DNA from: Dethiosulfovibrio faecalis
Lineage (GTDB): Bacteria; Synergistota; Synergistia; Synergistales; Dethiosulfovibrionaceae
DNA length: 64,000 bases
Direction of reading: 5' to 3'
Assembly (NCBI RefSeq): GCF_021568795.1
Contig: NZ_JAKGUE010000007.1
Coordinates: 1-64,000, forward strand
The translations under genes and the position numbers were made by a program. Below are positions 40,017 to 54,643 of the stretch, in pieces. Below the pieces are notes generated by a model. It was not told where the DNA came from and did not search any database. It saw nothing but the letters and a program-made list of their open reading frames with translations. Position 1 is the first letter of the stretch, and each line of letters opens with the position of its first letter.

Positions 40017-41732
40017 GCCCTTTCCGAACCAGCGGCGTTCCAGTTCGTCTCTCTTCTTCTCTATCACTTGGGCTATAAGGTCGTAAAGGTCCGAGGAGGT
40101 CGTCAGGGGCATGACCACCCCGTAGTTTTCCCGGTCCATCTGGGATCCCACCATGACGAGAGATGGGTCGTTAGAGCCGTACTGTAGAAAGACCGGTGTC
40201 TCGACTATGGCACCGTCGGCCTCGCCTTTTTTCACCGCCTGGAAGATGTCGTCCCAATTGTCCTTCTCAATTATGCTGCCGTCGGGGAACAGTTCCCGGG
40301 CCAGGTCGGCTCCTGTGAGTCCTCCGTGAACCGCCAGGGTCTTTCCCTTAAGGTCTCTCAGATGGGTAAGTCCTCTGTCCGAGGTGGACACGGCGCACTG
40401 GCCGCTGGCGAAGGAGAGGGGCGAGAACAGGACCTTTTCGCCTCTTTCGACGGTCTTGGTCACGGCGGACGCCATTATGTGGACATCCTCTCCCCAGAGG
40501 CCTCGGTCCAGTATTCCCGACCTGGTCCCGGCCTCGCCGTTTCCCTGGGGAACGGGCACTATCTCCAGGGGGACTCCTATCACCTCCGCTATCGCGTGGG
40601 ACAGATCGACGTCGAATCCCTTAGGGCTGCCGTGCAGATCGAAGTGGAACAGGCCGTAGTCGGTGTCCAACATGGCCACCTTGAGCCTGCCGTCGTCCAA
40701 TATCGATCTCACCGACGGATGTCCATTGAGGGGGAGTTCCTCTCTCTCCAGGTCTCGGGCGATGGGGCTCAGGTCCGAGGTCCTCTTCTCCAGGCATCTC
40801 ATTATGACCCGTTGTTCTCCTATGGCGGCGGCGAGAGACTCCACCCTGATCGATTCCTGGGTGACCACCGACGCGGTTTCCTGGAGGGATGCCACGAAGG
40901 TCTCCACCCCTTCGGCCTGGTCGTTCACGTTGGAGGACGCGGTCTCCAGGCTGTTTTGCACCTTGACCAGATCGTCCAGCATGGACTCCAGGTTGAGTCT
41001 GCTCTCTCTGGCCTGTTTTCCCGCCTCCGAGACGGACCGATCCGCCTCGGAGATCCTCTCCTGTCCCCTTTGGGCCAGTTCCTCTATGGAGTGGGCCAGA
41101 TCGCCGATCTGCTTGGCCGCCAGGGAGGATTCCTCCGCCAGCTTCCTAACCTCCTCCGCCACGACGGCGAAGCCTCTCCCGTGCTCTCCCGCTCTGGCGG
41201 CCTCTATGGCGGCGTTGAGGGCCAACAGATTGGTCTGGGTGGCGACCCCCGCTATGACGTTTACGAAACGGCCTATGTCTCCGCTGACGGAGACCATCTT
41301 CTCTATGGCCTCGCCCAGGGCCCTGGCGGTCGTCTCGACCCTTTCGTTGGCCTTCTCCGTGTCGACGGCGAGATCCCTGTTCTTCTCCGCCTTCTCCCTC
41401 ACGGAGGCACCTCCTTGGGCTATCTCCTTAAGTATCTCGGCGGAGCCGTGATGCAGTTCGCCTATTTTCGTTACCTCTTCGCTAAGTCGTCCCGTTATAC
41501 GGTCAAGGTCGCAGAGGGACTCGGCGATCCCGTCTGCGTGTTCTCCCACTTTGTCCATTGAACCGCTGCCGTCGGAGACCAGGGCCTCCAGGTCCTCCGA
41601 GAGGCCCTGAGCTCTTATGGAGAGGGACAGCCTCTCTATGGATCGGTCGTCTTCGGCGGGCCTCTCGATCGAAGGACGTCTTATCTCCGTTTTTCCGAAG
41701 AGGTCTAGCGGCATGAGTCCCCCTCTTTTCAT
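40002..41732 (-). CDS. chemoreceptor signalling domain fused to a C-terminal solute-binding domain
   Basis: A 576-residue protein with no transmembrane helix and no signal peptide. Residues about 60-330 form an MCP coiled-coil hairpin with the tip [21 protein letters not shown] near 160-180. Residues about 345-576 match the family 3 extracellular solute-binding fold (amino-acid type): [70 protein letters not shown]. That domain normally sits in the periplasm; here it should be cytoplasmic, sensing an internal solute. ATG 41732 overlaps the mgsA stop (ATGA) and has GGAGG 7 bases ahead. The domain order is rare, and the frame is intact. Confidence 0.88.
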
Positions 41733-42202
41733 CGTTCTTCCTCCTTCTGGTATTCCTCTATGATCGCCTCGTTTCGCGCCTGTTGATGGGCGTCGAAATC
41801 CCTGTGTTCGTTGTCGTATGGCAGGGATATCAGAGGCGAAGAGAATAGGAAGTCCGCCGAGGCCATGTTGCAGGCCATGGGGATGTTGTATAAGGTCGCT
41901 ATGCGTAGCAGTGCCTTTATGTCCGAATCGTGGGCCTGGGTGTTGAGCGGATCCCACAGAAAAACGATGGCGTCCAGTCTCTCGCAGGCTATTCTGGCTC
42001 CGAGCTGCTGATCTCCTCCGAGAGGTCCCGATTTCAGCTTGTCTATCGGAAGACCCAACGCCGCCTCCAGAAGGGCTCCGGTCGTTCCGGTGGAGCATAG
42101 CCGATGAGCCGTCAGCTGCTCCCTGTGTCTTTTAGCCCATCGTATCAGGTCCTTCTTCCTGCTGTCGTGGGCCACCAGGGCGATTTTCTTGACTGCTTCC
42201 AA
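41729..42202 (-). CDS. mgsA: methylglyoxal synthase
   Basis: A 157-residue enzyme that converts dihydroxyacetone phosphate to methylglyoxal and phosphate, a bypass used when sugar phosphates build up. Family motifs are intact: [10 protein letters not shown] at the start, STGTTG (phosphate binding), [28 protein letters not shown] and [15 protein letters not shown] start with AGGAGGGG upstream. Its stop overlaps the start of the chemoreceptor-fusion gene, so the two are made together. Confidence 0.95.
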
Positions 42203-42238
42203 GGGTATCCCCTCCTATATAGGTGATATTCCATCGAT

Positions 42239-42268
42239 ATTGTACCTCCATGAGGTTATAATCGTGAA
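42239..42268. promoter_or_regulatory. overlapping divergent promoters
   Basis: For mgsA (minus): TTCACG (42268-42263), an 18-base spacer, TACAAT (42244-42239). For the plus-strand operon: TATAAT (42257-42262), 37 bases before its ATG, without a clear -35. The two -10 boxes face each other 12 bases apart, so the promoters should exclude one another. Confidence 0.5.
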
Positions 42269-42299
42269 GATTGGTGCTTAAATCGGGAGGTGTTTTTTC

Positions 42300-43511
42300 A
42301 TGGAACGAGAGGTTTCCGTTTCTGTCCCATTCGAGATCGCCATGATCCCAGTGGCGACCTCCGTGGTGGAGAGGGCCTCCGAGGCCTTCGGCCTGGACCG
42401 TAGAGGACAGCTGGGACTCGCCTTGGCGGCGGAGGAGATACTGGCCTTCGCCGGTTCCTCCGGGGGGGGAGGAGCCATGGAGGTGGTCTGTTCCGACAGA
42501 GGGGTATCCATAAGGGTGGAATGCAGAGTCCCTCGGGAAAGGCTTCCCCTGGAGGCCTTCAACATGACCTCGAGATCGGACGATCCAGACAGGATGGGTC
42601 TGGTCCTGGCGGCGAGATCGGCCCACAGGATGGGGGTCTCCCTGGAGAAGGGGGATCTGGCGGTCATATCCTTCGAGAGGGAGAGGGAGTACAGGGAGGT
42701 CTCGGCGGAACCCCTCTATCCCGATCAAGACGAGCCGATGGAGATAGGGATCCCCAGGCCGGACGAGTGGCCTCATCTGGCGGCCCAGGTGGAGGAGCGT
42801 TACGGTCGCGGCGGAGATCTCAAAAAAGCGGGACTTATGGCCCGCTCCCTGGAGCTGGGTCTTATAGGGGCTCTGGTGGCCCGTTCCCCTAGAGGACGGC
42901 TGGGAGGGCTCGTCCTCTGGAGGCCCATGGGAAGGGTCATAGAGCTCAGAGGGCCGTTTTGTTTTTCGTCGGTGGGCAGAGAACTGGTCGAGGAGGCATT
43001 GAGGACCCTTGGCAAGAGCGACGCCATGGGCATAGTGGTCGATCGACCCGTTTCCGACGTGCCCGAGGGATATTTCGAGCCTCTTTCCTCGCCGGGAGGG
43101 GCCCTTTTTCGACAGCTCAGGGAGGACAACGGCGCCCTGATCTGGGTTCCGGACGACCTCCGTCCCTTCGTGGAGGACGGGGTGGACCGTCTGGAGCTCC
43201 CGAGGGATATCCGTTCGGCGGAGCGACGGGAAGGACTGGACGAAAAATCCCTTCTGGCCGTCTCCACCGAGGTGGACGGCTCTGCTGTGATAGAGCCTCT
43301 TTTGGCCGGTAACGACGTCGGAGAAAATCTCCTGGCCCATCTCTACGCCCTGACCGAGAGGGGCGTTCGGTCCGTGTCTTTTCATCTGGATCTGGGACGG
43401 CCCGACTTCGCCTATATGGCCCAAAGCGCGCTGGAAGCGGGCTTCATTCCCAAGGTCCTGATCCCCTGGGGAGGCAGGGGAGACCTGCTCGTTATGGAGG
43501 GTCCGAGGTGA
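42300..43511 (+). CDS. HATPase-fold (RsbW-like) protein with unknown C-terminal region
   Basis: A 403-residue protein. Residues 1-120 resemble the anti-sigma-factor type of HATPase fold: VPFEIAMIPVATSVVERASEAFGL, then an N-box-like LGLALAAEEILAF and a G-box-like DDPDRMGLVLAARSAHRM. Key Asn and Gly residues are poorly kept, so ATP binding is uncertain. Residues 140-403 are not firmly assignable; GRLGGLVLWRPMGRVIEL followed by a helix recalls a GNAT fold. The ATG has GGGAGG upstream. It is the first gene of a long operon, and its stop overlaps the next start (GTGA). It may regulate the operon or act as a partner switch. Confidence 0.6.
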   Translation: MEREVSVSVPFEIAMIPVATSVVERASEAFGLDRRGQLGLALAAEEILAFAGSSGGGGAMEVVCSDRGVSIRVECRVPRERLPLEAFNMTSRSDDPDRMGLVLAARSAHRMGVSLEKGDLAVISFEREREYREVSAEPLYPDQDEPMEIGIPRPDEWPHLAAQVEERYGRGGDLKKAGLMARSLELGLIGALVARSPRGRLGGLVLWRPMGRVIELRGPFCFSSVGRELVEEALRTLGKSDAMGIVVDRPVSDVPEGYFEPLSSPGGALFRQLREDNGALIWVPDDLRPFVEDGVDRLELPRDIRSAERREGLDEKSLLAVSTEVDGSAVIEPLLAGNDVGENLLAHLYALTERGVRSVSFHLDLGRPDFAYMAQSALEAGFIPKVLIPWGGRGDLLVMEGPR

Positions 43512-44623
43512 GGGTTCCCTTTCCCCCTATGGATCGGTTGGTCCCGGATCACGTCAGGGAATTCGAGGCCTATATACCCAGTCGTCCCGACGACGTCCTG
43601 TGTCGTCTGTACCGTTGCGAGAGGCTCCACAGGCTCAACAACAACGAAAATCCTCTGGGCCCCCCCGAGGCGGCGAGGAAAGTATTGGACGACTGGCCCC
43701 CTTCGGAGGCCTCGGTATATCCCAGCGGAGACGCCTATCACCTTCGCTGTCTTCTGGGAGAGAGGCTGGGTCTGGATCCGGACTGCTTCATCGTGGGCAA
43801 CGGTGCCAACGAGGTGATAGCCTTCGTCATCAAGGCCTTCTGTCAGGAGGGGGACAACATCGTCACGGCCGACAGAACCTTCGCCGTCTACGAGTGGGTG
43901 GCCCTGTTCTCCGGCTTCGAGGCGAGGGTGCTTCCTCTGAAGGACGATCGTTTCGACGGAGAGGCCATGCTCGCTGCGATGGACGAGAGAACCAAGGTCC
44001 TCTTCCTGTGCAATCCCAACAACCCCACCGGGACCTACTGGTCCGAGGACGAGCTCAGGTCCTTTCTGGACAGGGTGAACGGCCGTTGCATAGTCGTGGT
44101 GGACGAGGCCTACATGGAGTTCGTAGAGGCATCCGACTTTCCCAGGACAGTCTCCATGCTGGACGATTACCCCAACCTGGTGGTGTTTCGCACCTTCTCC
44201 AAGATGTACGGTCTGGCCGGGCTCCGCATCGGCTACCTGTTCGGCGACAGGAGGGTGGTGGACGACATCCGGAGGACCTGCGTTGTCTACTCGGTGAACG
44301 GTCCGGCACAGGTGGCGGCGATGGCTGCCCTGTCCGACGACGGACCCCATATAGAGGCCACCAGGAGGATGTGTCGCGAGGCCCGGGAATATCTCCTGGA
44401 GGAACTGTCCGACATGGGTCTGCCCCACACCGTGAGGGAGGGTAACTTCGCGGTTGCGTCACTTCCCATGAGTGATACCCTGGCGTACAGAAAACTGATG
44501 CGAAGGGGCATAATGATCCGTTCCATGACGGGCTTTCGTGCCCCCAATCAGATAAGGGTGACCCTTTCGACCTTGCCGGTGATGGAGGAGTTCGTGAGGG
44601 CTTTAAAGGGGATAATAACTTGA
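43508..44623 (+). CDS. HisC-like PLP aminotransferase
   Basis: A 371-residue class I/II aminotransferase of the histidinol-phosphate type. Motifs: LNNNENPLGPP near the N-terminus, NPNNPTGTYW, VVVDEAYMEF, and the PLP lysine Lys232 in FRTFSKMYGLAGLRIGYL. Closing arginine: NQIRVTLST. No other histidine-biosynthesis gene is near, and the operon partners (acyl carrier protein, molybdenum hydroxylase) suggest another amino substrate, so I do not assign hisC. GTG start, 4-base overlap with the gene before it. Confidence 0.85.
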   Translation: MRVPFPPMDRLVPDHVREFEAYIPSRPDDVLCRLYRCERLHRLNNNENPLGPPEAARKVLDDWPPSEASVYPSGDAYHLRCLLGERLGLDPDCFIVGNGANEVIAFVIKAFCQEGDNIVTADRTFAVYEWVALFSGFEARVLPLKDDRFDGEAMLAAMDERTKVLFLCNPNNPTGTYWSEDELRSFLDRVNGRCIVVVDEAYMEFVEASDFPRTVSMLDDYPNLVVFRTFSKMYGLAGLRIGYLFGDRRVVDDIRRTCVVYSVNGPAQVAAMAALSDDGPHIEATRRMCREAREYLLEELSDMGLPHTVREGNFAVASLPMSDTLAYRKLMRRGIMIRSMTGFRAPNQIRVTLSTLPVMEEFVRALKGIIT

Positions 44624-44639
44624 CGAGGAGGTGTATGGC

Positions 44640-45620
44640 TTGGCGAATGGACCGGAGATAGGCATAAGAAGACTGGAAGAGAGCTCGGCCGGAGAGGTTC
44701 CGAAGCTCTACAGGGCCATATACGGCGACGATTTCCCGGCACCGGTGGTCTACGATTCCGAGGCGATTCTCAAGGCCGACAGAGAGGGCGACCAGGTTAC
44801 CTTGCTGGCCTTTTCCGGAGACCGGGTGATCGGGCAGGCCGTCGCGTCCAGATCCGCGTGGAATCCCGGCCTCTACGAGCTCATGGGGCTCATGGTTCTG
44901 CCTGAGTTCAGGTCCTCTCCTGCGGCTTCTATGTTGGCGAAGGCCATCACAGACGAGGTTTTGCCCTCTCTGGGATGGGAGGCCCGCTACACCGAGAGCA
45001 CAACGGCCCACGACCGTTCCCAGAGGATCGACCTTCGAATGGGGCACCGTCATTGCGCTTTGGCTCTGAACCTCCTTCCCGGAGTGGCCTACGGTCACGA
45101 CGAGCTGTTCTCCGTCTCCGGCAGGGTGAGCTGTGTCATGAGTTTCATGGAGAGACCGGGGCTGTCTCCCTTGGATACCTGGCTGCCGAGTCGGTATGAA
45201 TCGGCCCTCCTGGCCCTGTCGGAGGGGTTCCCAAGAGAGTTTCGAAGAGGCGAAACGCCTCCGGGCAAAGATGCCTCCTTGAAGTTCATCGTGTTTCCCG
45301 TGGCCGGAGTGGCCTATGTCACCGTGACCGATTTGGGCGAAAATCTGGCCGACACGATGGAAGAATCTCTGGCGAAACTGGGAATCCTCGATACGATAAT
45401 GTTGCAGATGCCCCTACTTCCGGGCATAGATCGATCCGTGGAGGTCGTCCGGGAGATGGGATTTCGCCTGGGAGGATATCTTCCCCGTTGGTTTCAGGGG
45501 GCGGACGGCCTCTTGCTTCAGAGAACCGGCGAGCCTCTGTGGGAGGAGATAAAGCTGCTCCCACCGCGGGGCACGATGCTGATGGATCTGGTCAGATCCG
45601 ACCGGGAGGGATCGCTTTGA
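44640..45620 (+). CDS. GNAT-like acetyltransferase, two-part
   Basis: A 326-residue protein. The first 150 residues look like a GNAT domain (IRRLEESSAGEVPKLYRAIYG, LLAFSGDRVIGQAVAS, then LMGLMVLPEFRSSPAASMLAK, where the acyl-CoA loop is expected). The second half may be a degenerate repeat ending MGFRLGGYLPRWFQGADGLLLQ. TTG 44640 is preferred because GAGGAGG lies 8 bases ahead. It overlaps the next gene by 4 bases (TTGA). The substrate is unknown. A role in acylating a product of the neighbouring aminotransferase is only a guess. Confidence 0.65.
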   Translation: MANGPEIGIRRLEESSAGEVPKLYRAIYGDDFPAPVVYDSEAILKADREGDQVTLLAFSGDRVIGQAVASRSAWNPGLYELMGLMVLPEFRSSPAASMLAKAITDEVLPSLGWEARYTESTTAHDRSQRIDLRMGHRHCALALNLLPGVAYGHDELFSVSGRVSCVMSFMERPGLSPLDTWLPSRYESALLALSEGFPREFRRGETPPGKDASLKFIVFPVAGVAYVTVTDLGENLADTMEESLAKLGILDTIMLQMPLLPGIDRSVEVVREMGFRLGGYLPRWFQGADGLLLQRTGEPLWEEIKLLPPRGTMLMDLVRSDREGSL

Positions 45621-46699
45621 TAGGCACTTTCTGTTCCGCCGGAGCGGTGGTCACGGTCACGGCTGAGATACTTTCCCGATACTCCTACAGACACCGTTAC
45701 GGCATCCCCTACAGGCCCAGAATCTACGGCGATTACAGATACAGGGAGTTCGTAGTGAAGGACGACGGCCCCATGGACAGCAGGCTTCTCAGGGGTTACC
45801 GTTCCCGCTGCGTCTCCATAAATCGGTGGGGCCTGAGAGGGCCCGAACCCCTCGAGGGCAGAAAAAGACTGGTCGTAATAGGAGAATCGGAGATCTTCGG
45901 GGTGAAGCTCTCCCGGGAGGACATGGTCTGGCGCAGGGTGCTGCAGGATTCGCTGGACCGGAGTCGTCCGGGACGGTGGGAGGTGATAAACGGCGGCCAT
46001 CCGGGCTACTCGTCGGAGCAGCATCGGCTGCTGTGGGATGGCGAGCTGATGGAGTCGGTTCGGCCGGACGTGGTATTGTTGCGCTTTGGAGGCAACGATC
46101 TGTCCATGGCCTACGCCATGGGGCACAGGTGGAACAGGGAAAGTCGTTGGCCCCTGAAGTTTTTATGGGGCATGAACTCCGTCCAGACCCCTCTTCAGAT
46201 TGCCATGATGCACAGCTGCCTATACTATCAGGGAAAAGGACGGGATTTCTACAGGAGGGCCTTTGGGGACGTCCTCAAGACCTTTTCCGAGGAAAAACGG
46301 AACGAGGCTCTGGAGGTGGTCATGGACAACCACCGGAAAATCCTGAAAATCGCCGAGGCATCGGGAGCCAAGGTGGCGGTCCTATCCGCAGCAGGATTGG
46401 AGCAGTGTCTCAGGGACGGAGAGGACAAGGGCCCTCTCGACGCCCTAAACGAAAACTGGAGGGCCTTCTCCGAGGGCTACGGCCCCACCCTGGACATGTG
46501 CCAGGATCTTTTGAGGGACGATTTTTGTTCCGATATGGGGATTCCCTTTCTGGACCTGAGGGAGTATCTTTCTCGGAGGGAGGATCTGGGAACGCTTTAT
46601 TTCGACGGGGTCCACTGGAACGACAGAGGACATACCGCCGTAGCGGAATACATGGAAAAGGTCCTGGAAGACCTGGGATGGCTCGACCCGGACCGTTGA
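45617..46699 (+). CDS. SGNH/GDSL-type hydrolase-like protein
   Basis: A 360-residue protein. SGNH blocks can be seen: RLVVIGESEIFGV (Ser91), INGGHPGYSS, LRFGGNDLS and DGVHWNDRGH (Asp330, His333). Members are esterases, lipases or O-acyltransferase-like enzymes. The first 20 residues are weakly hydrophobic (IGTFCSAGAVVTVTAEIL), perhaps a membrane anchor. TTG 45617 is chosen for GGGAGGG 6 bases ahead and the TTGA overlap with the gene before; an upstream in-frame extension lies wholly inside that gene. An acyl carrier protein gene follows, so an acyl-ester reaction is plausible. Confidence 0.78.
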   Translation: MIGTFCSAGAVVTVTAEILSRYSYRHRYGIPYRPRIYGDYRYREFVVKDDGPMDSRLLRGYRSRCVSINRWGLRGPEPLEGRKRLVVIGESEIFGVKLSREDMVWRRVLQDSLDRSRPGRWEVINGGHPGYSSEQHRLLWDGELMESVRPDVVLLRFGGNDLSMAYAMGHRWNRESRWPLKFLWGMNSVQTPLQIAMMHSCLYYQGKGRDFYRRAFGDVLKTFSEEKRNEALEVVMDNHRKILKIAEASGAKVAVLSAAGLEQCLRDGEDKGPLDALNENWRAFSEGYGPTLDMCQDLLRDDFCSDMGIPFLDLREYLSRREDLGTLYFDGVHWNDRGHTAVAEYMEKVLEDLGWLDPDR

Positions 46700-46718
46700 A
46701 TTAAGGAGGAAAAAAGAG

Positions 46719-46955
46719 ATGAGCAGAGCGGATATAGAGCTTAAGGTGCGTCAGGCCGTGGCCACCGAGCTGGGCATATCGATGGAGGACGTACCGGCAG
46801 ACGGCGATTTGGAGGCCCTCGGTGCCGATTCGATGAACGTGGTGGACATAGTGATGGAGCTGGAGGACGCCTACGGCCTCGAGGTTCCCGAGGAGGCCAT
46901 GGAGGCTGTCAAGCTCGTGTCGGACCTCACCAACTACGTCGCCGCCAGGGTTTAG
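46719..46955 (+). CDS. acyl carrier protein
   Basis: A 78-residue acidic helical protein with the phosphopantetheine site GADSMN (Ser38). The frame around it (DLEALGADSMNVVDIVMELEDAYGLEVPEE) is that of fatty-acid-type carrier proteins, with DSM in place of the usual DSL. GGAGGAAA lies before the ATG. No ketosynthase, malonyltransferase or other fatty-acid gene is nearby. It stands between an SGNH hydrolase gene and a molybdenum hydroxylase gene, 19 and 4 bases away, so it probably serves a dedicated pathway. Confidence 0.92.
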   Translation: MSRADIELKVRQAVATELGISMEDVPADGDLEALGADSMNVVDIVMELEDAYGLEVPEEAMEAVKLVSDLTNYVAARV

Positions 46956-46959
46956 TGAT

Positions 46960-49263
46960 ATGAGAGGCCCCTTGGTCGCCGGGATCTCGGTGCCCAGGAT
47001 CGAGGGTATGGCCAAGGTTCGCGGCGAGGAACGCTACGCCTCGGATATAACCGGTCCTGGAATCCTCTGGGCGGTAGCCCGCCGTGCCGGAATTCCCTCG
47101 GGGATACTGCGGTCCCTGGGGGACGAGCCGGTCTCGATGGACGGGGTCGTCGCAGTCTGTAAGGCCGACTCTATAGAGGGAGAGAATCTCCTGGGGGTAT
47201 TGGAGCCGGATCAGCCGGTCCTGGTCCCTCTAGGAGGCAGGATAAGATATCGCGGAGATCCCGTGGCCGTGGTCGTCGCCGACACCAGGGAGAGGGCCGA
47301 GGCGGCCGCCAGGGCCTTGACCGTGGAGATAGACCCCCTTCCGGCGGTATTCGATCCTCCGGAGGCCCTGTCTCCGGATGCTCCCTTGCTCTATCCCGAC
47401 AGAGAGGGCGGCAATCTCCTGGTGTCGGGATGGGTCAGAAGAGGAGACGCCAAATCGGTGTTGGAGGACTGCGATCTGGTGGAGGAGGACGTCTTTCGTT
47501 TCCCAATGCAGGAGCACGCCTATCTGGAGACCGAGTCGGGGGTGGCCCTCTACGATGGAGAAAATCTGGAGATGGAGGTGTCCACCCAGAATCCCTGGAG
47601 GGACAGGGACGAGCTGTCCAGGGCGCTCGGCCTTCCCCGAGAGAGGATAAGGGTCAAGGCCCCCTGCCTGGGAGGCGGCTTCGGCGGGAAGGACGGAGTG
47701 GTTATCCAGGGGATTCTCGGTGCCGCCGCCATGGCCTGTCCGGGGCGGACGGTGAAGATGGTCTTCTCCCGGGAGGAAAGCTTCCTCTGCTCTCCCAAGA
47801 GGCACTCTTCCGTGACCGAGATGACCTTGGGCTGCTCCTCCGACGGATTTCTCAGGGCAATAAGATGCCGCTTCACCCTGGACTCGGGGGCCTACGCGTC
47901 CATGTCCGTTCCGGTGCTCACCAACGGTCTGGATCACTGCTGCGGTGCCTACCGGTTCGAGGCTGTTGAACTGGAGGGGCGGGCGGTCTACACCAACAAC
48001 CCCTTCGGAGGGGCCTTTCGAGCCTTCGGTGCCCCTCAGGTGATGGGAGCACTGGAGCAGCTGGTGGACCGTCTAGCCAAGAGGCTCGGAATGGATCCTC
48101 TGGAGTTTCGCAAAAAGAACGGCCTGGTCCGGGGAGATATGAACGGCTCCGGCGTGGTCCTCACATCCACGGTTGGGGCCGTCCCCTGTCTGGACCGAGC
48201 TCTGGAACAGGAGATATGGACCTCCAGGGAAGAATGGCGAAACTCCGCACCGGAGGGCAAGGCCCGTTCCACCGGGGCTGCCCTGATATGCCACGGTCAG
48301 GGTTTCGGCCCGGGAATACCGGATTTCGCCAACGCCAGAATAGAGCTGACCGAGGAGGGGCGTTTCAGGCTCTACTCGGGGATACCCGACATGGGGCAGG
48401 GCAACGGTTCCACCTACGTCCACCTCGCCGGAGAACCTCTGTGTCAGGAGCGGGATAGATTCGATCTCGTCCAGCCCGACACGGACAGGAGCCTCCGCTC
48501 CGGCCCAGCTGCGGCCAGCCGCACCACCTACATATACGGCAGGGCCCTCCTAGCCGCGGTGGACGAGCTGAAGAGGCGCATGTACGTGAAGGCCGGAATG
48601 GTTCTCGGAGCGAGGGAGGACGATCTCGTCCTGCTTCCCGGCAGGATGAGGTGTATATCCTCCGGAAGGGAGCTGCCCTTGGAGGTCCTCGCAGGTTTCA
48701 TGGAGCTTCCGGAAAGATGCTCCGTGGCGGGGAGCCTGGCTCCGGTCTCCTTTCCTGGGCCGGAGACGGACTATGGTCCGAAAAACTCCGGGTTTCCTCA
48801 CTGCATCTTCTCCTGGGCGGTGCACGTCGCCAGGGTCGAGGTGGATCTCTTCACCGGTCAGGTGTCGGTTCCCCGTTATCTGGCGGTCACGGAGGCGGGG
48901 CGGGTGGTGAACCCTCAGATGTACCGTCAGCAGGTAGAGGGCGGCGTAGCCCAGGGACTGGGATACGCTCTTTTCGAGGATTTTTCCGTCAAGAACGGCG
49001 AGGTCGTTTCGAAAGACCTCTCCACCTATATAATACCCACCTCCATGGACCTTCCCGAGGTGGAATGCCTGGCTGTGGAGCTGGACGAGCCCTCCGGGCC
49101 GAAGGGGCTGAAGGGGTTGGGAGAGCTCCCTCTGATAGGGCCTCTGCCTGCGGTGGCGAACGGTCTGGCCAATATATGCGGTCCTCTGACAGCCTCTCCC
49201 TTCACCGCCGAGAGGGTGTTTTTCTCTTTGTCCGGAGGTGCGAGAGATGAAGGTAGAGTTTAA
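46960..49263 (+). CDS. xanthine dehydrogenase family, molybdopterin-binding large subunit
   Basis: A 767-residue molybdenum hydroxylase subunit. Motifs: GMAKVRGEERYASDI at the start, CLGGGFGGKDG, GGAFRAFGAPQ, GMGQG-like GIPDMGQGN, and the catalytic Glu in KGLGELPLIG near the end. Enzymes of this family hydroxylate purines, aldehydes, nicotinate or other N-heterocycles with water as oxygen source. The substrate is not readable here, and the operon is unlike purine operons. The ATG is 4 bases after the acyl carrier protein stop. The 3' end overlaps the iron-sulfur subunit by 17 bases. Confidence 0.92.
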   Translation: MRGPLVAGISVPRIEGMAKVRGEERYASDITGPGILWAVARRAGIPSGILRSLGDEPVSMDGVVAVCKADSIEGENLLGVLEPDQPVLVPLGGRIRYRGDPVAVVVADTRERAEAAARALTVEIDPLPAVFDPPEALSPDAPLLYPDREGGNLLVSGWVRRGDAKSVLEDCDLVEEDVFRFPMQEHAYLETESGVALYDGENLEMEVSTQNPWRDRDELSRALGLPRERIRVKAPCLGGGFGGKDGVVIQGILGAAAMACPGRTVKMVFSREESFLCSPKRHSSVTEMTLGCSSDGFLRAIRCRFTLDSGAYASMSVPVLTNGLDHCCGAYRFEAVELEGRAVYTNNPFGGAFRAFGAPQVMGALEQLVDRLAKRLGMDPLEFRKKNGLVRGDMNGSGVVLTSTVGAVPCLDRALEQEIWTSREEWRNSAPEGKARSTGAALICHGQGFGPGIPDFANARIELTEEGRFRLYSGIPDMGQGNGSTYVHLAGEPLCQERDRFDLVQPDTDRSLRSGPAAASRTTYIYGRALLAAVDELKRRMYVKAGMVLGAREDDLVLLPGRMRCISSGRELPLEVLAGFMELPERCSVAGSLAPVSFPGPETDYGPKNSGFPHCIFSWAVHVARVEVDLFTGQVSVPRYLAVTEAGRVVNPQMYRQQVEGGVAQGLGYALFEDFSVKNGEVVSKDLSTYIIPTSMDLPEVECLAVELDEPSGPKGLKGLGELPLIGPLPAVANGLANICGPLTASPFTAERVFFSLSGGARDEGRV

Positions 49264-49720
49264 CCTGAACGGAGAGGACCTCTCCATGGAGCTGTCCGGG
49301 GACGAAAGAGTTCTGGATATCCTGAGGGACAGGGTTGGGATTCCGTCCTGTCGGGAGGGGTGCGGAACAGGAGAGTGTGGAGCCTGTACCGTTCTGGTGG
49401 ACGGGGAGAGTCGTCTGTCCTGTCTCATGGTCTCCGCTCAGCTGGACGGGAAAACCGTCACCACAGTGGAGGGGATCAGGGACCTTCCCAGATGGGCTCC
49501 CCTTTTCGAGTCCTTCGATCGTCTGGGAGCGGTCCAGTGCGGCTACTGCACTCCCGGCATGGTGCTGGCCGCCGTCGACCTTCTGACCAGGAACCCCGAT
49601 CCCTCCAGGGACGAGGTCAGGATCGCCCTGAGCGGCAACATCTGTCGCTGCACCGGCTACAGGGCCATAGTCGACGCCGTCATGGAGGGGGCCGAGATAA
49701 TGAGGGGGCTCTCGCTGTGA
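49247..49720 (+). CDS. xanthine dehydrogenase family, [2Fe-2S] subunit
   Basis: A 157-residue electron-transfer subunit with two [2Fe-2S] clusters. Cysteines of the plant-ferredoxin type cluster are in CREGCGTGECGACTVLV and SRLSC, and of the helical cluster in CGYCTPGM and NICRCTGY. ATG 49247 has GGAGG 9 bases ahead and is preferred over GTG 49238. It overlaps the large-subunit gene by 17 bases and the FAD-subunit gene by 4. Length is normal. Confidence 0.95.
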   Translation: MKVEFNLNGEDLSMELSGDERVLDILRDRVGIPSCREGCGTGECGACTVLVDGESRLSCLMVSAQLDGKTVTTVEGIRDLPRWAPLFESFDRLGAVQCGYCTPGMVLAAVDLLTRNPDPSRDEVRIALSGNICRCTGYRAIVDAVMEGAEIMRGLSL

Positions 49721-50562
49721 CGGTCTACAGCCCGATCACCGTCGGAGAGGCCCTGGAACGTCTGTCCGGAGGGGCTGTCCCCATGGCGGGAGGCACGGAC
49801 CTTTCGGTAAGGCTTCGATCCTCGGAAAAACGTCCCGATCTTGTCCTGCTCGACCGGATAGAGAGCATGAAATGGGTCTCTCTCAGGGGAGACTATCTGG
49901 TCCTAGGGGCCTGTGCCACCTGGCAGAGGGTGATCGACAGTCCTCTCATAGCCGTTGAGGTTCCCCTGTTGGCCATGGCCGCCTCCTCCGTGGGAGGTCC
50001 GGCCCTGCGTCACATGGGGACGGTGGGGGGAAATATATGTACGGCCTCTCCCGGGGCGGACGGACTCTGTTCCCTCTGGGCCCTGGGGGCGGAGGTGTGT
50101 ATAAGGTCGCTAGACTCGACCAGATCCTTACCTATAGACGACTTCATACTTGGACCGGGAAAGACCGTACTGGAGCCGGGGGAGCTCCTGACGGAGATAC
50201 TTATTCCCCTGAGGACCGGCTGGCGTCCTTTTTTTCGAAAAGACGGCCTGCGCAGGGCCATGGCCATCTCTGTGGGGTCCTGTGCGGCAATTTGGAGGCC
50301 TTCGGAGGACGGAGGATCGGTGGAGGAGATACGGATGGTCCTGGGCTCCATGGGGCCGGTCCCGATCAGGTCCCTCCGGGCCGAGGCCGCCATGGCCGGA
50401 GCTAGCCTTTTCGACGAGGGGGCTTTCCGGTCGGCGGGAGACGCTCTCGGCCTGGAGGTAAAACCCATAGACGATATCCGGGCGTCCAGGGCCTATCGAG
50501 TGGAGCTGGCGAGGAACTATCCTACGATCTTCAGGTCGTCCGTCGTCGCGGCCGATGTATAA
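49717..50562 (+). CDS. xanthine dehydrogenase family, FAD-binding subunit
   Basis: A 281-residue FAD-domain protein. FAD-contact motifs are PMAGGTDLSVRLR and TVGGNICTASPGAD. The C-terminal part matches the CO dehydrogenase flavoprotein C-terminal domain. GTG 49717 overlaps the stop of the iron-sulfur subunit (GTGA). With the two genes before it, it completes a three-subunit L-S-M enzyme. The order large, small, medium is one of several known layouts. Confidence 0.93.
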   Translation: MTVYSPITVGEALERLSGGAVPMAGGTDLSVRLRSSEKRPDLVLLDRIESMKWVSLRGDYLVLGACATWQRVIDSPLIAVEVPLLAMAASSVGGPALRHMGTVGGNICTASPGADGLCSLWALGAEVCIRSLDSTRSLPIDDFILGPGKTVLEPGELLTEILIPLRTGWRPFFRKDGLRRAMAISVGSCAAIWRPSEDGGSVEEIRMVLGSMGPVPIRSLRAEAAMAGASLFDEGAFRSAGDALGLEVKPIDDIRASRAYRVELARNYPTIFRSSVVAADV

Positions 50563-50584
50563 TCCTCGTCGGGAGGGATTTCAT

Positions 50585-52285
50585 ATGACGTTGAACTTTT
50601 CGGTTGATCGAGACTCCTTGGTGGAGGCTGTCTGGGACGAGATAACCGAGGGAATTACCCTGACCGACCGGTCCGGGACCATCCTGGCGGTCAACAGGGC
50701 TTTCTCTGCCATAACCGGCTACGGGGCCTCCGAGGCGGTGGGTCGGAACCCCAGGATATTGAAGTCCCAGCATCACGACGATTTTTTCTACAGGGATATG
50801 TGGCGGTCCATAAAGGACGAAGGACGATGGGAAGGGGAGATCTGGAACCGTCGCAAGGACGGAGAGATCTACCCCGAGTGGCTCTCCATAAAGAGGCTTT
50901 ACGGCTCGGACGGCTCCGTATATTACATGGCGGTCTTCTCCGATCTGTCCAGGATGAAGTCGATGAAGGAGGGCAAGTCCTTTCACGGCGCCAAGGACAT
51001 CCTGACCGGTCTGCCCGATCGTTTCGTCCTTATGGAGCGGCTCTCTTCGTCGTTGGTCCGGGGGAAGAGGCAGGGCGAATCGGTAGGGCTGATAGTGCTG
51101 AATCTGAACCGTTTCAAGGACGTCAACGACGGCTTCGGCTACTTAGTGGGCGACAAGGTCCTCAGGCATATAGGCGATCGTTTCCGGTCCATAGTGAATG
51201 ATCACGAGATGGTCGCCCGGGTCGGCAGCGACGAGTTCGCCTTCGTTATACCTCAGAACGGAAGATCCGACAGGATACGAACGGTCCTGCGCTCGATCGG
51301 CGAGGTGTTCCAAAGGCCCATCTCCATCTCCGATGCGGAGCTCAATATATCGGTCAGCGTGGGGGTCAGCGTGTTCCCCGACGACGCTGCCAATGGAGAC
51401 GAGATGATACGAAACGCCGGATTGGCCATGCACAGGGTCAAGAGAGAGGCTCTACTTGGAGGCTATGCCCTGTACAACGACGAGATGGATCGCGACGCTC
51501 GCCGAAGGGCCGCCCTTGAACAGGAGATGAGGCTCGCCATGGATCGAGGCGAGTTCTTTTTGCAATATCAGCCCCAGGTTCTCATGGGAGGATCGGAGAT
51601 CGTAGGGGTGGAGGCCCTGGTGAGGTGGCGGAAGCCGGACGGAGAGGTGGTCTCTCCCGGAGAGTTTATCCCCCTGGCGGAGGAGACGGGAATAATGGTC
51701 CCTCTGGGGAGATGGATACTGGGGGAGGCCTGTCGTCAGGGGGTCCTCTGGGAGAGGGCGGGCTTTTACCTGAAGATGTCGGTGAACGTGTCGCCGGTGC
51801 AGATATACGGAGACGATCTCTGCGAAACCGTGGCCTCCGTCCTGAAGGAGACGGGATTTTCGGCGGAGCGGCTCACCCTTGAGATAACTGAAAATACCTT
51901 GAAGGACAACGGCGGCTATCTTCTCGACATCTTCGACAGAATAAAGGAGCTGGGCGTAAAGGTCGCCATAGACGATTTCGGAACGGGTTACTCCTCCTTC
52001 GACTTTATAAGGAACTTTCCCTTCTACGGTATAAAAATAGACCGCTCCTTCGTGCTGGATCTGGAGCGGTCTCCCAGAAGCGCCGCAGTGGCGAACTCGG
52101 TGATAGCGATGGCCCGTAATATGGCTAGGGCGGTCGTGATAGAGGGGGTCGAGACGAAAAGTCAGCTTTTCCATATAGGAGGCGAGAAGACCGATCTCAT
52201 AATTCAGGGTTTCGTCTACAGCCGTCCTCTGAACCCGGAGAATCTGCCGGAATTCGTAGAATCCCTCAGGCCTCCTGTCTCCTGA
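50585..52285 (+). CDS. PAS-GGDEF-EAL protein, predicted c-di-GMP phosphodiesterase
   Basis: About 566 residues. PAS domain about 10-125 (ITLTDRSGTILAVNRAFSAITGY). The GGDEF domain has GSDEF (214-218) in place of GGDEF, so cyclase activity is doubtful; it may bind GTP to tune the EAL part. The EAL domain looks active: VEALVRW (Glu343), NVSPVQ, EITEN, DDFGTGYSS, KIDRSF, EGVET. ATG 50585 has GGGAGGG ahead; ATG 50555 is upstream of that site. It begins 22 bases after the FAD subunit, so it may share its transcript. Its end overlaps the convergent DMT gene by 20 bases. Confidence 0.88.
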   Translation: MTLNFSVDRDSLVEAVWDEITEGITLTDRSGTILAVNRAFSAITGYGASEAVGRNPRILKSQHHDDFFYRDMWRSIKDEGRWEGEIWNRRKDGEIYPEWLSIKRLYGSDGSVYYMAVFSDLSRMKSMKEGKSFHGAKDILTGLPDRFVLMERLSSSLVRGKRQGESVGLIVLNLNRFKDVNDGFGYLVGDKVLRHIGDRFRSIVNDHEMVARVGSDEFAFVIPQNGRSDRIRTVLRSIGEVFQRPISISDAELNISVSVGVSVFPDDAANGDEMIRNAGLAMHRVKREALLGGYALYNDEMDRDARRRAALEQEMRLAMDRGEFFLQYQPQVLMGGSEIVGVEALVRWRKPDGEVVSPGEFIPLAEETGIMVPLGRWILGEACRQGVLWERAGFYLKMSVNVSPVQIYGDDLCETVASVLKETGFSAERLTLEITENTLKDNGGYLLDIFDRIKELGVKVAIDDFGTGYSSFDFIRNFPFYGIKIDRSFVLDLERSPRSAAVANSVIAMARNMARAVVIEGVETKSQLFHIGGEKTDLIIQGFVYSRPLNPENLPEFVESLRPPVS

Positions 52286-53174
52286 TCTTCTTAGACAGGC
52301 CTGACAGGTCCAGCTCGGTTAGTAGGATGGAGAAGAATATCAGGCCGCAGCCCATGGCGAGTCGGGACGTGAGGGGCTCGTCGAGAAAGACGATGCCGAC
52401 CGTCATGGCGAATACCGACTCCATTATGAGCAGTATGCTGGCGTGGGTGGACGACGTCAGCTGCTGCGATTTTATCTGTAGGGCGTAGGGAATCAAGGTA
52501 CACCCCACGACGAGATATGCCATCCAGCCCACTACCGCCGTAGATTGAATCTGGGGCATAGGCTCCCATATAAGGGCCCCTATGACGCAGGCCACGGCGC
52601 TCAAGGCGGTCTCCACCATGGTGAGGGTGAGGGCGTCGCTCTCCTGGGCCATCCTGTCTATAACCACCAGCTGAACAGCGAAGGCCAGGGCGCAGCCCAT
52701 GGTGAGAAGTTCTCCGAAGCCTATGGCTATATTGGCTCCGTCCAGGGTTATGGCCCCCATCCCCAAGAGGCATATGCCCGAGGCCACGAAGGCCTTGAAT
52801 CCCGGGCTTCTTCTGTCGGCAGCCCAGGTTATGAACGGGACCATCACGACGTAGCAGGCCGTTATGAAGGCCGATTTGCCCGTCGTGGTGTATTGAAGCC
52901 CTATTGTCTGGAGGGCCATGGCCACCAGCAGCAGAGAACCTATTATCCCTCCGACCTTGATATCTCTGGCTGTGAGTTTTTTCAGCCTCTTGGGAGACAG
53001 CCCCGCTATCAGCAGGAAACTGAAGGTGAACCTGAAGGCCAGAAGCCACAGAGGGCCCATGTATTTCATTACCTCTTTGGTGGCGGCGAAGGAAACTCCC
53101 CAAAGCAGCGCACAGGTTAGGATGCCCAGATCCCCTAGAGCCATCTTCTTCTTATCGTATATTCTCTCTGCCAT
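52266..53174 (-). CDS. DMT superfamily (EamA) transporter
   Basis: A 302-residue membrane protein with ten hydrophobic helices and two EamA repeats. Typical stretches are LTCALLWGVSFAATKEVMKY near the N-terminus and SVFAMTVGIVFLDEPLTSRLAMG in the second repeat. Family members export amino acids, nucleosides or other metabolites; the substrate is unknown. It is a single gene, convergent with the EAL protein and divergent from the RND genes. Confidence 0.88.
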   Translation of the reverse strand: MAERIYDKKKMALGDLGILTCALLWGVSFAATKEVMKYMGPLWLLAFRFTFSFLLIAGLSPKRLKKLTARDIKVGGIIGSLLLVAMALQTIGLQYTTTGKSAFITACYVVMVPFITWAADRRSPGFKAFVASGICLLGMGAITLDGANIAIGFGELLTMGCALAFAVQLVVIDRMAQESDALTLTMVETALSAVACVIGALIWEPMPQIQSTAVVGWMAYLVVGCTLIPYALQIKSQQLTSSTHASILLIMESVFAMTVGIVFLDEPLTSRLAMGCGLIFFSILLTELDLSGLSKKIRRQEA

Positions 53175-53341
53175 CTCCAGTCGGCGCGGACGCCGTTCCC
53201 TCCTTTTCTACTGCTGAACGGATACATCAAGTCAGGACACTGTATCACAAAATGACGAACTTTTGGACATCCTCTATGGTAAGATCGTCTTAATAGTGAC
53301 GACGGTCGATATACGGATTCATATTCCCGGGAGGTCAGAAA

Positions 53342-54643
53342 ATGAAGAGAATGTTGTGGGCAGGTAAAAAGATCGCCTTGGCGGTGGTTATCCTGGTGGT
53401 AGTGGGATACGGAGGCATGGAGTTCGTGCGTTCCCGTCTCGGCGAGAAGGACCTGGAGCCGGAGATAGTCCGCCCGGTCCGTACCGAGACTCTGGCGCCG
53501 GAGGGCAAAGCCTTCCAGGGAATTTATCAGGGCACGGTACAGGCCTCCCAGAAGGTGGACCTTTCCTTTCGGGTGTCGGGCCCTCTTGTGGACTTTCCGG
53601 TCAAGAAGGGCCAGGAGGTCAAGGCAGGCGACCTCCTGGCCCGTATAGACCCCAGGGATTTCAAGACCAAGCTGGACAGCGCCGAGAGCCAGCTCAGGCA
53701 GTTACAGGCGAAACTGGCGGAGATGAAGTCCGGAGCCAGGGCGGAGGACCTTGCCGCGGCTCAGGCTTCGGTAAGCGCCGCCCAGGCCCAGTACGCCGAG
53801 GCGGAGTCGAACTACAAGAGGTTCAAGTCCCTTTACGATCAGGGAGCGGTCTCTCAGGTGCAGTATGAACAGTACAAGACCGCCTACGACGTCGCCCGTT
53901 CTTCCCTCCGGTCCGCACAGGAGTCCCTTAAGAAGGCCCGCTCCGGAGCCAGAAAGGAAGAGCTCCAGCAGCAGGAGGCGGCCATCCAGGCTCAGGAGTC
54001 GGCGGTCGAGGCCGCCCGTTCCGCCCTGTCCGACACGGAGCTTCGAGCCCCCTTCGACGGGGTAGTGGCCGATACCTTCGCCGACAACCATCAGTTCGTC
54101 CAGGCGAAGCAGACCATATTGAGCCTTCAGAACCTCAAGAACATAGAGATGGTGGTCCACGTGCCAGACGGAGACGTGATCAGGATAAGAGAAAAACAGA
54201 TAGGGAATCTGCAGCTGACCGCCACGTTGGACGCCATGCCGGGACGGGTGTTCCCCGTTACCTTCAAGGAGTTTTCCACTCAGGCGGACCCCTCGACCCA
54301 GACCTACCAGGCGACGGTAACCATGCCCTACCCGGAAAACGTGACAGTACTTCCCGGTATGGCCGTTACGTTGAGGGTCGTAGGGGTTATCGAAGGTCAG
54401 GACTCGAAGCTCGAGTCTCTTTTCTCCGTTCCGGTGGACGCTGTCTTCGCCGATCAGTCCGGCAACAGCTACATATGGCTCTACGAGGATGGAGTCGTTC
54501 GCAGGGTTCCTGTGAAGACCGGTCCCTATATGGGCGACAGGCTCTCCGTAACGGGGGATCTCAAGATCGGAGACGTGGTCGTGACGGCCGGGGTCCATTT
54601 TCTGAGAGAAGGTCAGAAGGTCCGCCTGATGACCGCCGAATAG
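53342..54643 (+). CDS. RND efflux periplasmic adaptor (membrane fusion protein)
   Basis: A 433-residue adaptor. One N-terminal anchor helix (IALAVVILVVVGYGGM) is followed by a lipoyl-like half (YQGTVQASQKVDLSFRVSG), a long coiled-coil hairpin (about 95-230, many Ala/Gln/Glu), the second lipoyl half (LRAPFDGVVADTFADNHQFV) and a beta-barrel domain. It should bridge the RND pump to an outer-membrane channel. GGGAGG lies before the ATG. The RND pump gene follows at once. No TolC-like gene is in the window. Confidence 0.92.
   Translation: MKRMLWAGKKIALAVVILVVVGYGGMEFVRSRLGEKDLEPEIVRPVRTETLAPEGKAFQGIYQGTVQASQKVDLSFRVSGPLVDFPVKKGQEVKAGDLLARIDPRDFKTKLDSAESQLRQLQAKLAEMKSGARAEDLAAAQASVSAAQAQYAEAESNYKRFKSLYDQGAVSQVQYEQYKTAYDVARSSLRSAQESLKKARSGARKEELQQQEAAIQAQESAVEAARSALSDTELRAPFDGVVADTFADNHQFVQAKQTILSLQNLKNIEMVVHVPDGDVIRIREKQIGNLQLTATLDAMPGRVFPVTFKEFSTQADPSTQTYQATVTMPYPENVTVLPGMAVTLRVVGVIEGQDSKLESLFSVPVDAVFADQSGNSYIWLYEDGVVRRVPVKTGPYMGDRLSVTGDLKIGDVVVTAGVHFLREGQKVRLMTAE

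Follow-up and report, generated by a model that had tools for sequence, protein, structure and literature searches.

What do nine genes that combine an acyl carrier protein (ACP) with a molybdenum hydroxylase make together, and which of them form one unit? The genes (P0001 to P0009) lie on the plus strand in one run at 42300-52285 of the window, by which we mean the whole 64,000-nucleotide stretch analysed here (Dethiosulfovibrio faecalis, contig NZ_JAKGUE010000007.1, positions 1 to 64,000). They encode a protein with a degenerate HATPase-like part, a HisC-like aminotransferase, a GNAT-family protein, an SGNH hydrolase, the ACP, the three hydroxylase subunits, and a PAS-GGDEF-EAL protein (Table 1). 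Judged from the sequence, the eight packed genes at 42300-50562 are a real, selectively maintained operon. Our reading of its function is tentative: with somewhat less than an even chance, this operon serves a small-molecule pathway, so far uncharacterised, in which an ACP-fed GNAT protein carries out an acylation.

An earlier reading of the letters and open reading frames (ORFs) alone, here the sequence-only reading, had described nine genes with overlaps or gaps of 22 bases at most. The DNA and the ORF list confirm intergenic distances of 22 bases or less, and strand, order and coordinates are as it gave them. P0001 and P0002 overlap by 4 bases, P0002 and P0003 are 7 bases apart, P0003 and P0004 overlap by 4, and gaps of 19 and 4 bases separate P0005 from P0004 and P0006, respectively. 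P0006 and P0007 overlap by 17 or 26 bases depending on the start chosen: the P0007 ORF opens at 49238, and the ATG at 49247 is better spaced from GGAGG. The GTG start of P0008 shares bases with the stop of P0007 (GTGA, overlap of 4), and P0009 follows after 22 bases. Most starts are preceded by Shine-Dalgarno-like GGAGG/GGGAGG motifs.

The full nine-gene order is repeated in two of the six congeneric genomes compared (G001 and G005). Most of the encoded proteins are about 90-96% identical to their counterparts there, the GNAT protein 84-87%. Pairwise ratios of nonsynonymous to synonymous substitution (dN/dS, NG86) are 0.05-0.23 for all nine genes, ACP and SGNH included; the SGNH gene and, in most comparisons, the ACP gene fall at 0.05-0.08. 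Because the order is repeated and every gene falls between 0.05 and 0.23, the run is a maintained unit and not a set of drifting neighbours. Three further congeners retain the GNAT gene. In G003 and G004, the two for which the complete locus could be compared, it (dN/dS 0.07) directly abuts a remnant of the FAD-subunit gene (dN/dS 0.56, weakly constrained), and therefore more of the set once stood there; an EamA gene and then the PAS-GGDEF-EAL gene follow. This EamA gene, which encodes a transporter and runs in the opposite direction, occupies the place of the lost genes (L074:10473-11369, L073:8749-9645).

Two phyla share a wider core of co-located genes, namely those for P0001, the HisC-like aminotransferase, the GNAT protein and all three subunits of the hydroxylase. 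Outside the window's phylum, where the distribution is drawn from plasmids alone, it is carried by plasmid pTs417 (NZ_CP020371.1) of Thiodictyon, a purple sulfur bacterium of the Gammaproteobacteria. The order there is P0001 homolog, HisC-like aminotransferase, MFS gene, hydroxylase large subunit, 2Fe-2S, FAD and P0003 homolog. The large subunit is split into its first residues, an IS607-type insertion and a truncated remainder. Within the phylum, G026 and G034, of another family, hold pieces of P0001, aminotransferase, GNAT, large subunit, 2Fe-2S and FAD genes; their order is that of the window, and identity is 36-68%. Through deletions, GNAT residue 146 is followed directly by large-subunit residue 16, and large-subunit residue 290 by 2Fe-2S residue 51; a TGA and a frameshift also occur. 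In this decayed core (L071:7800-12600 and L072), several lesions are common to the two species. A real fused enzyme encoded by the long open frame in these genomes was rejected, given the several deletions, the TGA, the frameshift and the ease with which long frames arise at high GC. P0001 has convincing orthologs only in G001, G005, G026, G034 and Thiodictyon. Wide scans of genome contigs with P0004 and P0001 gave no matches; viral contigs gave none, and a phage collection only distant HisC-like matches to P0002. Within these data the core is intact only in the window's lineage, and its distribution suggests an accessory trait, one prone to both spread and decay.

The single unit proposed by the sequence-only reading is thus supported as one operon by order, selection and recurrence of the core, but the PAS-GGDEF-EAL gene falls outside the conserved unit. 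P0009 persists at the locus in G003 and G004 without the core, and no counterpart lies beside the Thiodictyon or G026 copies. Because it is kept when the core is lost and is not found beside the distant copies, we rejected it as a core member and regard it as a neighbour; it is possibly co-transcribed by readthrough from the operon. Its GGDEF motif reads GSDEF and its EAL motifs look intact, which suggests a phosphodiesterase.

Two unrelated operons, which the earlier reading had also considered, would leave hydroxylase genes in related genomes without the upstream genes. In the 188 genomes of the phylum that were searched, every hydroxylase relative with more than 41% identity lies downstream of P0001, aminotransferase and GNAT genes, and the set recurs on the Thiodictyon plasmid. 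P0002 is 64% identical to the Thiodictyon plasmid copy and 67% to that of G026, and within these 188 genomes its relatives outside the five core-bearing ones reach at most 40%. P0002 narrowly passes the NCBIfam HisC model TIGR01141 (279.8 bits, cut-off 276.55). It differs from the histidinol-phosphate aminotransferase HisC in lying outside a his operon, in apparently being extra to other HisC-like copies and in accompanying the hydroxylase across phyla. Since HisD is present in 7 of 7 genomes checked, including congeners lacking P0002, and HisC-like paralogs occur elsewhere (one at G000:C1:382736, 228 bits, scored as a fragment), P0002 looks extra to histidine synthesis, and we consider it unlikely to be the housekeeping HisC.

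The ACP and SGNH genes are seen only in the three intact copies (the window's genome, G001 and G005), between GNAT and hydroxylase. P0005 carries its phosphopantetheine serine in a GADSMN motif, and P0004 has, by reading, the motifs GESEIFG, GGND and DGVHWN. In a 13-sequence alignment, the coenzyme A (CoA)-loop motif of P0003 is RSSPAA only in this ACP-bearing trio, and RGLGIG, RNLGLT or RGLGLS in close relatives. The altered loop would fit a protein that has changed its acyl donor, or one that has lost its activity. Alternatively, ACP and SGNH may be passengers that were inserted into a pre-existing operon and serve the acylation of envelope or lipids, unrelated to the core. Both are indeed missing from the Thiodictyon copy, a phylum search found no full-length relative of P0004 elsewhere, and P0005, 95-96% identical in G001 and G005, otherwise has no relative above 34% in 21 genomes. 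However, the two genes are translationally packed with the core at the junctions given above, are kept in three of three genomes, and the GNAT CoA loop differs exactly where they occur. We hold the passenger explanation to be improbable.

A GNAT protein served by a discrete carrier has precedents. SbzC and SbzI of altemicidin/SB-203208 biosynthesis draw their acyl groups from a stand-alone carrier protein (PMC6331615), and FeeM is cited there as a carrier-protein-dependent GNAT. As in these systems, a discrete ACP is encoded in the cluster of the GNAT gene, and the P0003 loop is consistent with a non-CoA donor; the run differs in having no adenylating enzyme and in including a molybdenum hydroxylase and an HATPase-GNAT relative. 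The sequence-only reading had further imagined the hydroxylase acting on a group held by the ACP. ACP delivery to the GNAT protein is plausible in view of SbzC/SbzI and FeeM, whereas hydroxylation of a carrier-bound substrate is unsupported, and ACP and SGNH occur in three species only.

The family names given earlier hold, with a qualification for P0001: it matches no Pfam or NCBIfam family, HATPase_c_2 included, and its HATPase-like part emerges only by profile comparison. Its family profile aligns over full length with HATPase_c_2+GNAT proteins (hhalign, 406 columns, 98.2%, E 3e-14), and the Thiodictyon ortholog reaches 18.6 bits against HATPase_c_2, below the cut-off of 27.4. For P0003, solved chains gave no match up to E 1; the HATPase_c_2+GNAT proteins align with it over their C-terminal two thirds. 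From these alignments, P0001 and P0003 look like two branches of a single HATPase-GNAT family. HATPase_c_2-GNAT genes lie beside acyl-activating genes of LuxC/LuxE type in several of the phylum's genomes (LuxE-like and/or LuxC(-PaaK fusion); L080:6521-11762 on G000:C4 of this genome, L078, L081, L036 and L041), a setting that favours the acylation pathway set out below. These proteins share the two-domain architecture of P0001 and the C-terminal region of P0003; they differ in being single proteins, about 500 residues long, in which the HATPase domain is clear, and no hydroxylase or ACP was recognised beside those examined.

This kinship raises a sensory or regulatory reading, in which the RsbW-like P0001 and the GNAT protein, joined by the PAS-GGDEF-EAL protein, would control other proteins through acylation or partner switching. 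One of the HATPase_c_2+GNAT proteins with which P0001 groups (G059) adjoins, by reading, a SpoIIE-type phosphatase gene, and the Thiodictyon GNAT gene adjoins SpoIIE, STAS and anti-sigma-like genes. We consider a regulatory unit very unlikely, as P0001 has no recognisable ATP-binding family match, P0009 is unlinked to the core outside the genus, and three hydroxylase subunits with an aminotransferase are metabolic.

P0006-P0008 belong to the broad molybdenum hydroxylase family, with MoCo domains, two [2Fe-2S] motifs (eight cysteines in P0007, by reading), an FAD subunit and a C-terminal Glu. They share three subunits, the MoCo domains and the context of the catalytic Glu (GLGELPLIGP) with XdhABC/PucCDE, nicotinate dehydrogenase and 4-hydroxybenzoyl-CoA reductase. 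They differ from XdhABC/PucCDE in scoring under every xanthine dehydrogenase equivalog cut-off: 461 against 784 bits (PucD) and 403 against 780 (XdhA) for the large subunit, 189 against 310 for the FAD subunit and 155 against 217 for the 2Fe2S subunit. The nearest solved chains to P0006 are 4-hydroxybenzoyl-CoA reductase and nicotinate dehydrogenase. P0006 has Asn (LTNGLDHC) in place of the substrate-pocket Arg of nicotinate dehydrogenase (ITRATVHC), and another hydroxylase of this genome keeps Arg at this position (VVLQRGVLH). We take the aligned Arg to be equivalent to bovine Arg880, which binds purine in xanthine dehydrogenase. The next full-length hydroxylase relatives in the phylum, at 40-41% identity, share KDG after GGGFG and adjoin an SsnA aminohydrolase gene (G063 and G065), which hints at a heterocyclic substrate for P0006. 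Of these loci (L111 and L112), which are possibly heterocycle breakdown clusters, L111 also holds PyrD-like and threonine-synthase-like genes.

The strongest rival builds on this hint. In a catabolic module, the hydroxylase would start the breakdown of a purine-, pyridine- or imidazole-like N-heterocycle, the aminotransferase and GNAT proteins would process the opened amino-acid-like products, and ACP and SGNH would be incidental. The nearest solved relatives, the SsnA neighbourhoods and a patchy distribution with decay suit such a niche trait. On the other hand, the run encodes neither a ring-opening hydrolase nor an aminohydrolase nor an uptake system, its ACP and SGNH genes rank with the most constrained, and the MFS gene within the Thiodictyon set matches only an opine exporter, and that weakly. 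On balance, we think catabolism unlikely.

For the ACP-fed pathway that we prefer, we infer the following steps from gene content. The hydroxylase would oxidise a heterocyclic or aldehyde intermediate, the aminotransferase would aminate a keto or aldehyde intermediate, and the GNAT protein would acylate the resulting amine. In the three ACP-bearing species, it may take the acyl group from holo-ACP instead of CoA, in keeping with the altered CoA loop, and the SGNH hydrolase may act on an acyl ester, by trimming or by transfer. P0001 has a degenerate ATP-binding domain and could assist or regulate the GNAT protein without being catalytic itself. The pathway probably yields a specialised metabolite and not a compound of housekeeping metabolism.

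Several points weigh against this pathway. The altered loop of P0003 could equally mean lost GNAT activity, and no acyl-activating (adenylating) enzyme to load the ACP was recognised in the run or the surrounding genes examined. The Thiodictyon copy does without ACP and SGNH; G026 and G034 say nothing on either gene, because a deletion spans their place. One single copy was found outside the phylum, and every copy outside the three-congener trio is damaged. For P0001, AlphaFold run on a single sequence gave a model of too low quality for a structure search (mean predicted local distance difference test score, pLDDT, of 44).

The sequence-only reading knew of no described pathway with this gene set, and literature searches bear this out; the paulomycin paper (PMC4425429) lists an ACP and genes of the xanthine-dehydrogenase type within a single region, not this combination. 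The locus offers an undescribed enzyme set common to two phyla, with the core separated from its additions and a pathway testable gene by gene. If the ACP does feed the GNAT protein, carrier-protein chemistry would here include a molybdenum hydroxylase, a combination of which the literature searches gave no described case. It is doubtful that the locus represents a new pathway class, in which a molybdenum hydroxylase is joined to ACP-delivered N-acylation with a degenerate RsbW-like/GNAT partner and an aminotransferase-hydroxylase core moves between phyla on plasmids.

Table 1 Features of the run and its surroundings (positions in the window)
Feature	Position	Strand	Description
MGS-domain (methylglyoxal-synthase-like) gene	41729-42202	-	Upstream neighbour, divergent from P0001
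Promoter-like site TCGATA-17-TATAAT	42234-42262	+	10 of 12 consensus bases; in divergent gap between MGS-domain gene and P0001
P0001	42300-43511	+	Degenerate HATPase_c_2-like domain, then GNAT-like region; core
P0002	43508-44623	+	HisC-like pyridoxal-phosphate aminotransferase; core
P0003	44631-45620	+	GNAT-family protein (PF00583) with a second GNAT-like half; core
P0004	45617-46699	+	SGNH/GDSL hydrolase (PF13472, 1.6e-11); probable start TTG 45617
P0005	46719-46955	+	ACP (PF00550, 1.2e-13)
P0006	46960-49263	+	Molybdenum hydroxylase large subunit, MoCoBD_1 + MoCoBD_2; core
P0007	49247-49720	+	[2Fe-2S] subunit, PF01799 + PF00111; core
P0008	49717-50562	+	FAD subunit, PF00941 + PF03450; start GTG 49717; core
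P0009	50585-52285	+	PAS-GGDEF-EAL protein (Pfam); start ATG 50585; outside conserved core
EamA transporter gene	52266-53174	opposite to run	Downstream neighbour

The run is flanked on both sides by opposite-strand genes, the MGS-domain gene upstream and the EamA transporter gene downstream. The promoter-like site is the top sigma-70-like match in 42000-53400 and lies 37 bases 5' of the first ATG; consensus matches of this kind are weak evidence, and its position fits the run. Further upstream, the chemoreceptor-like ORF P0010 (40002-41732, minus strand) has an unusual domain order: its MCP signalling domain precedes the SBP_bac_3 solute-binding domain, which is C-terminal. Its long start is probably spurious, the first 120 residues extending across the MGS-domain gene.

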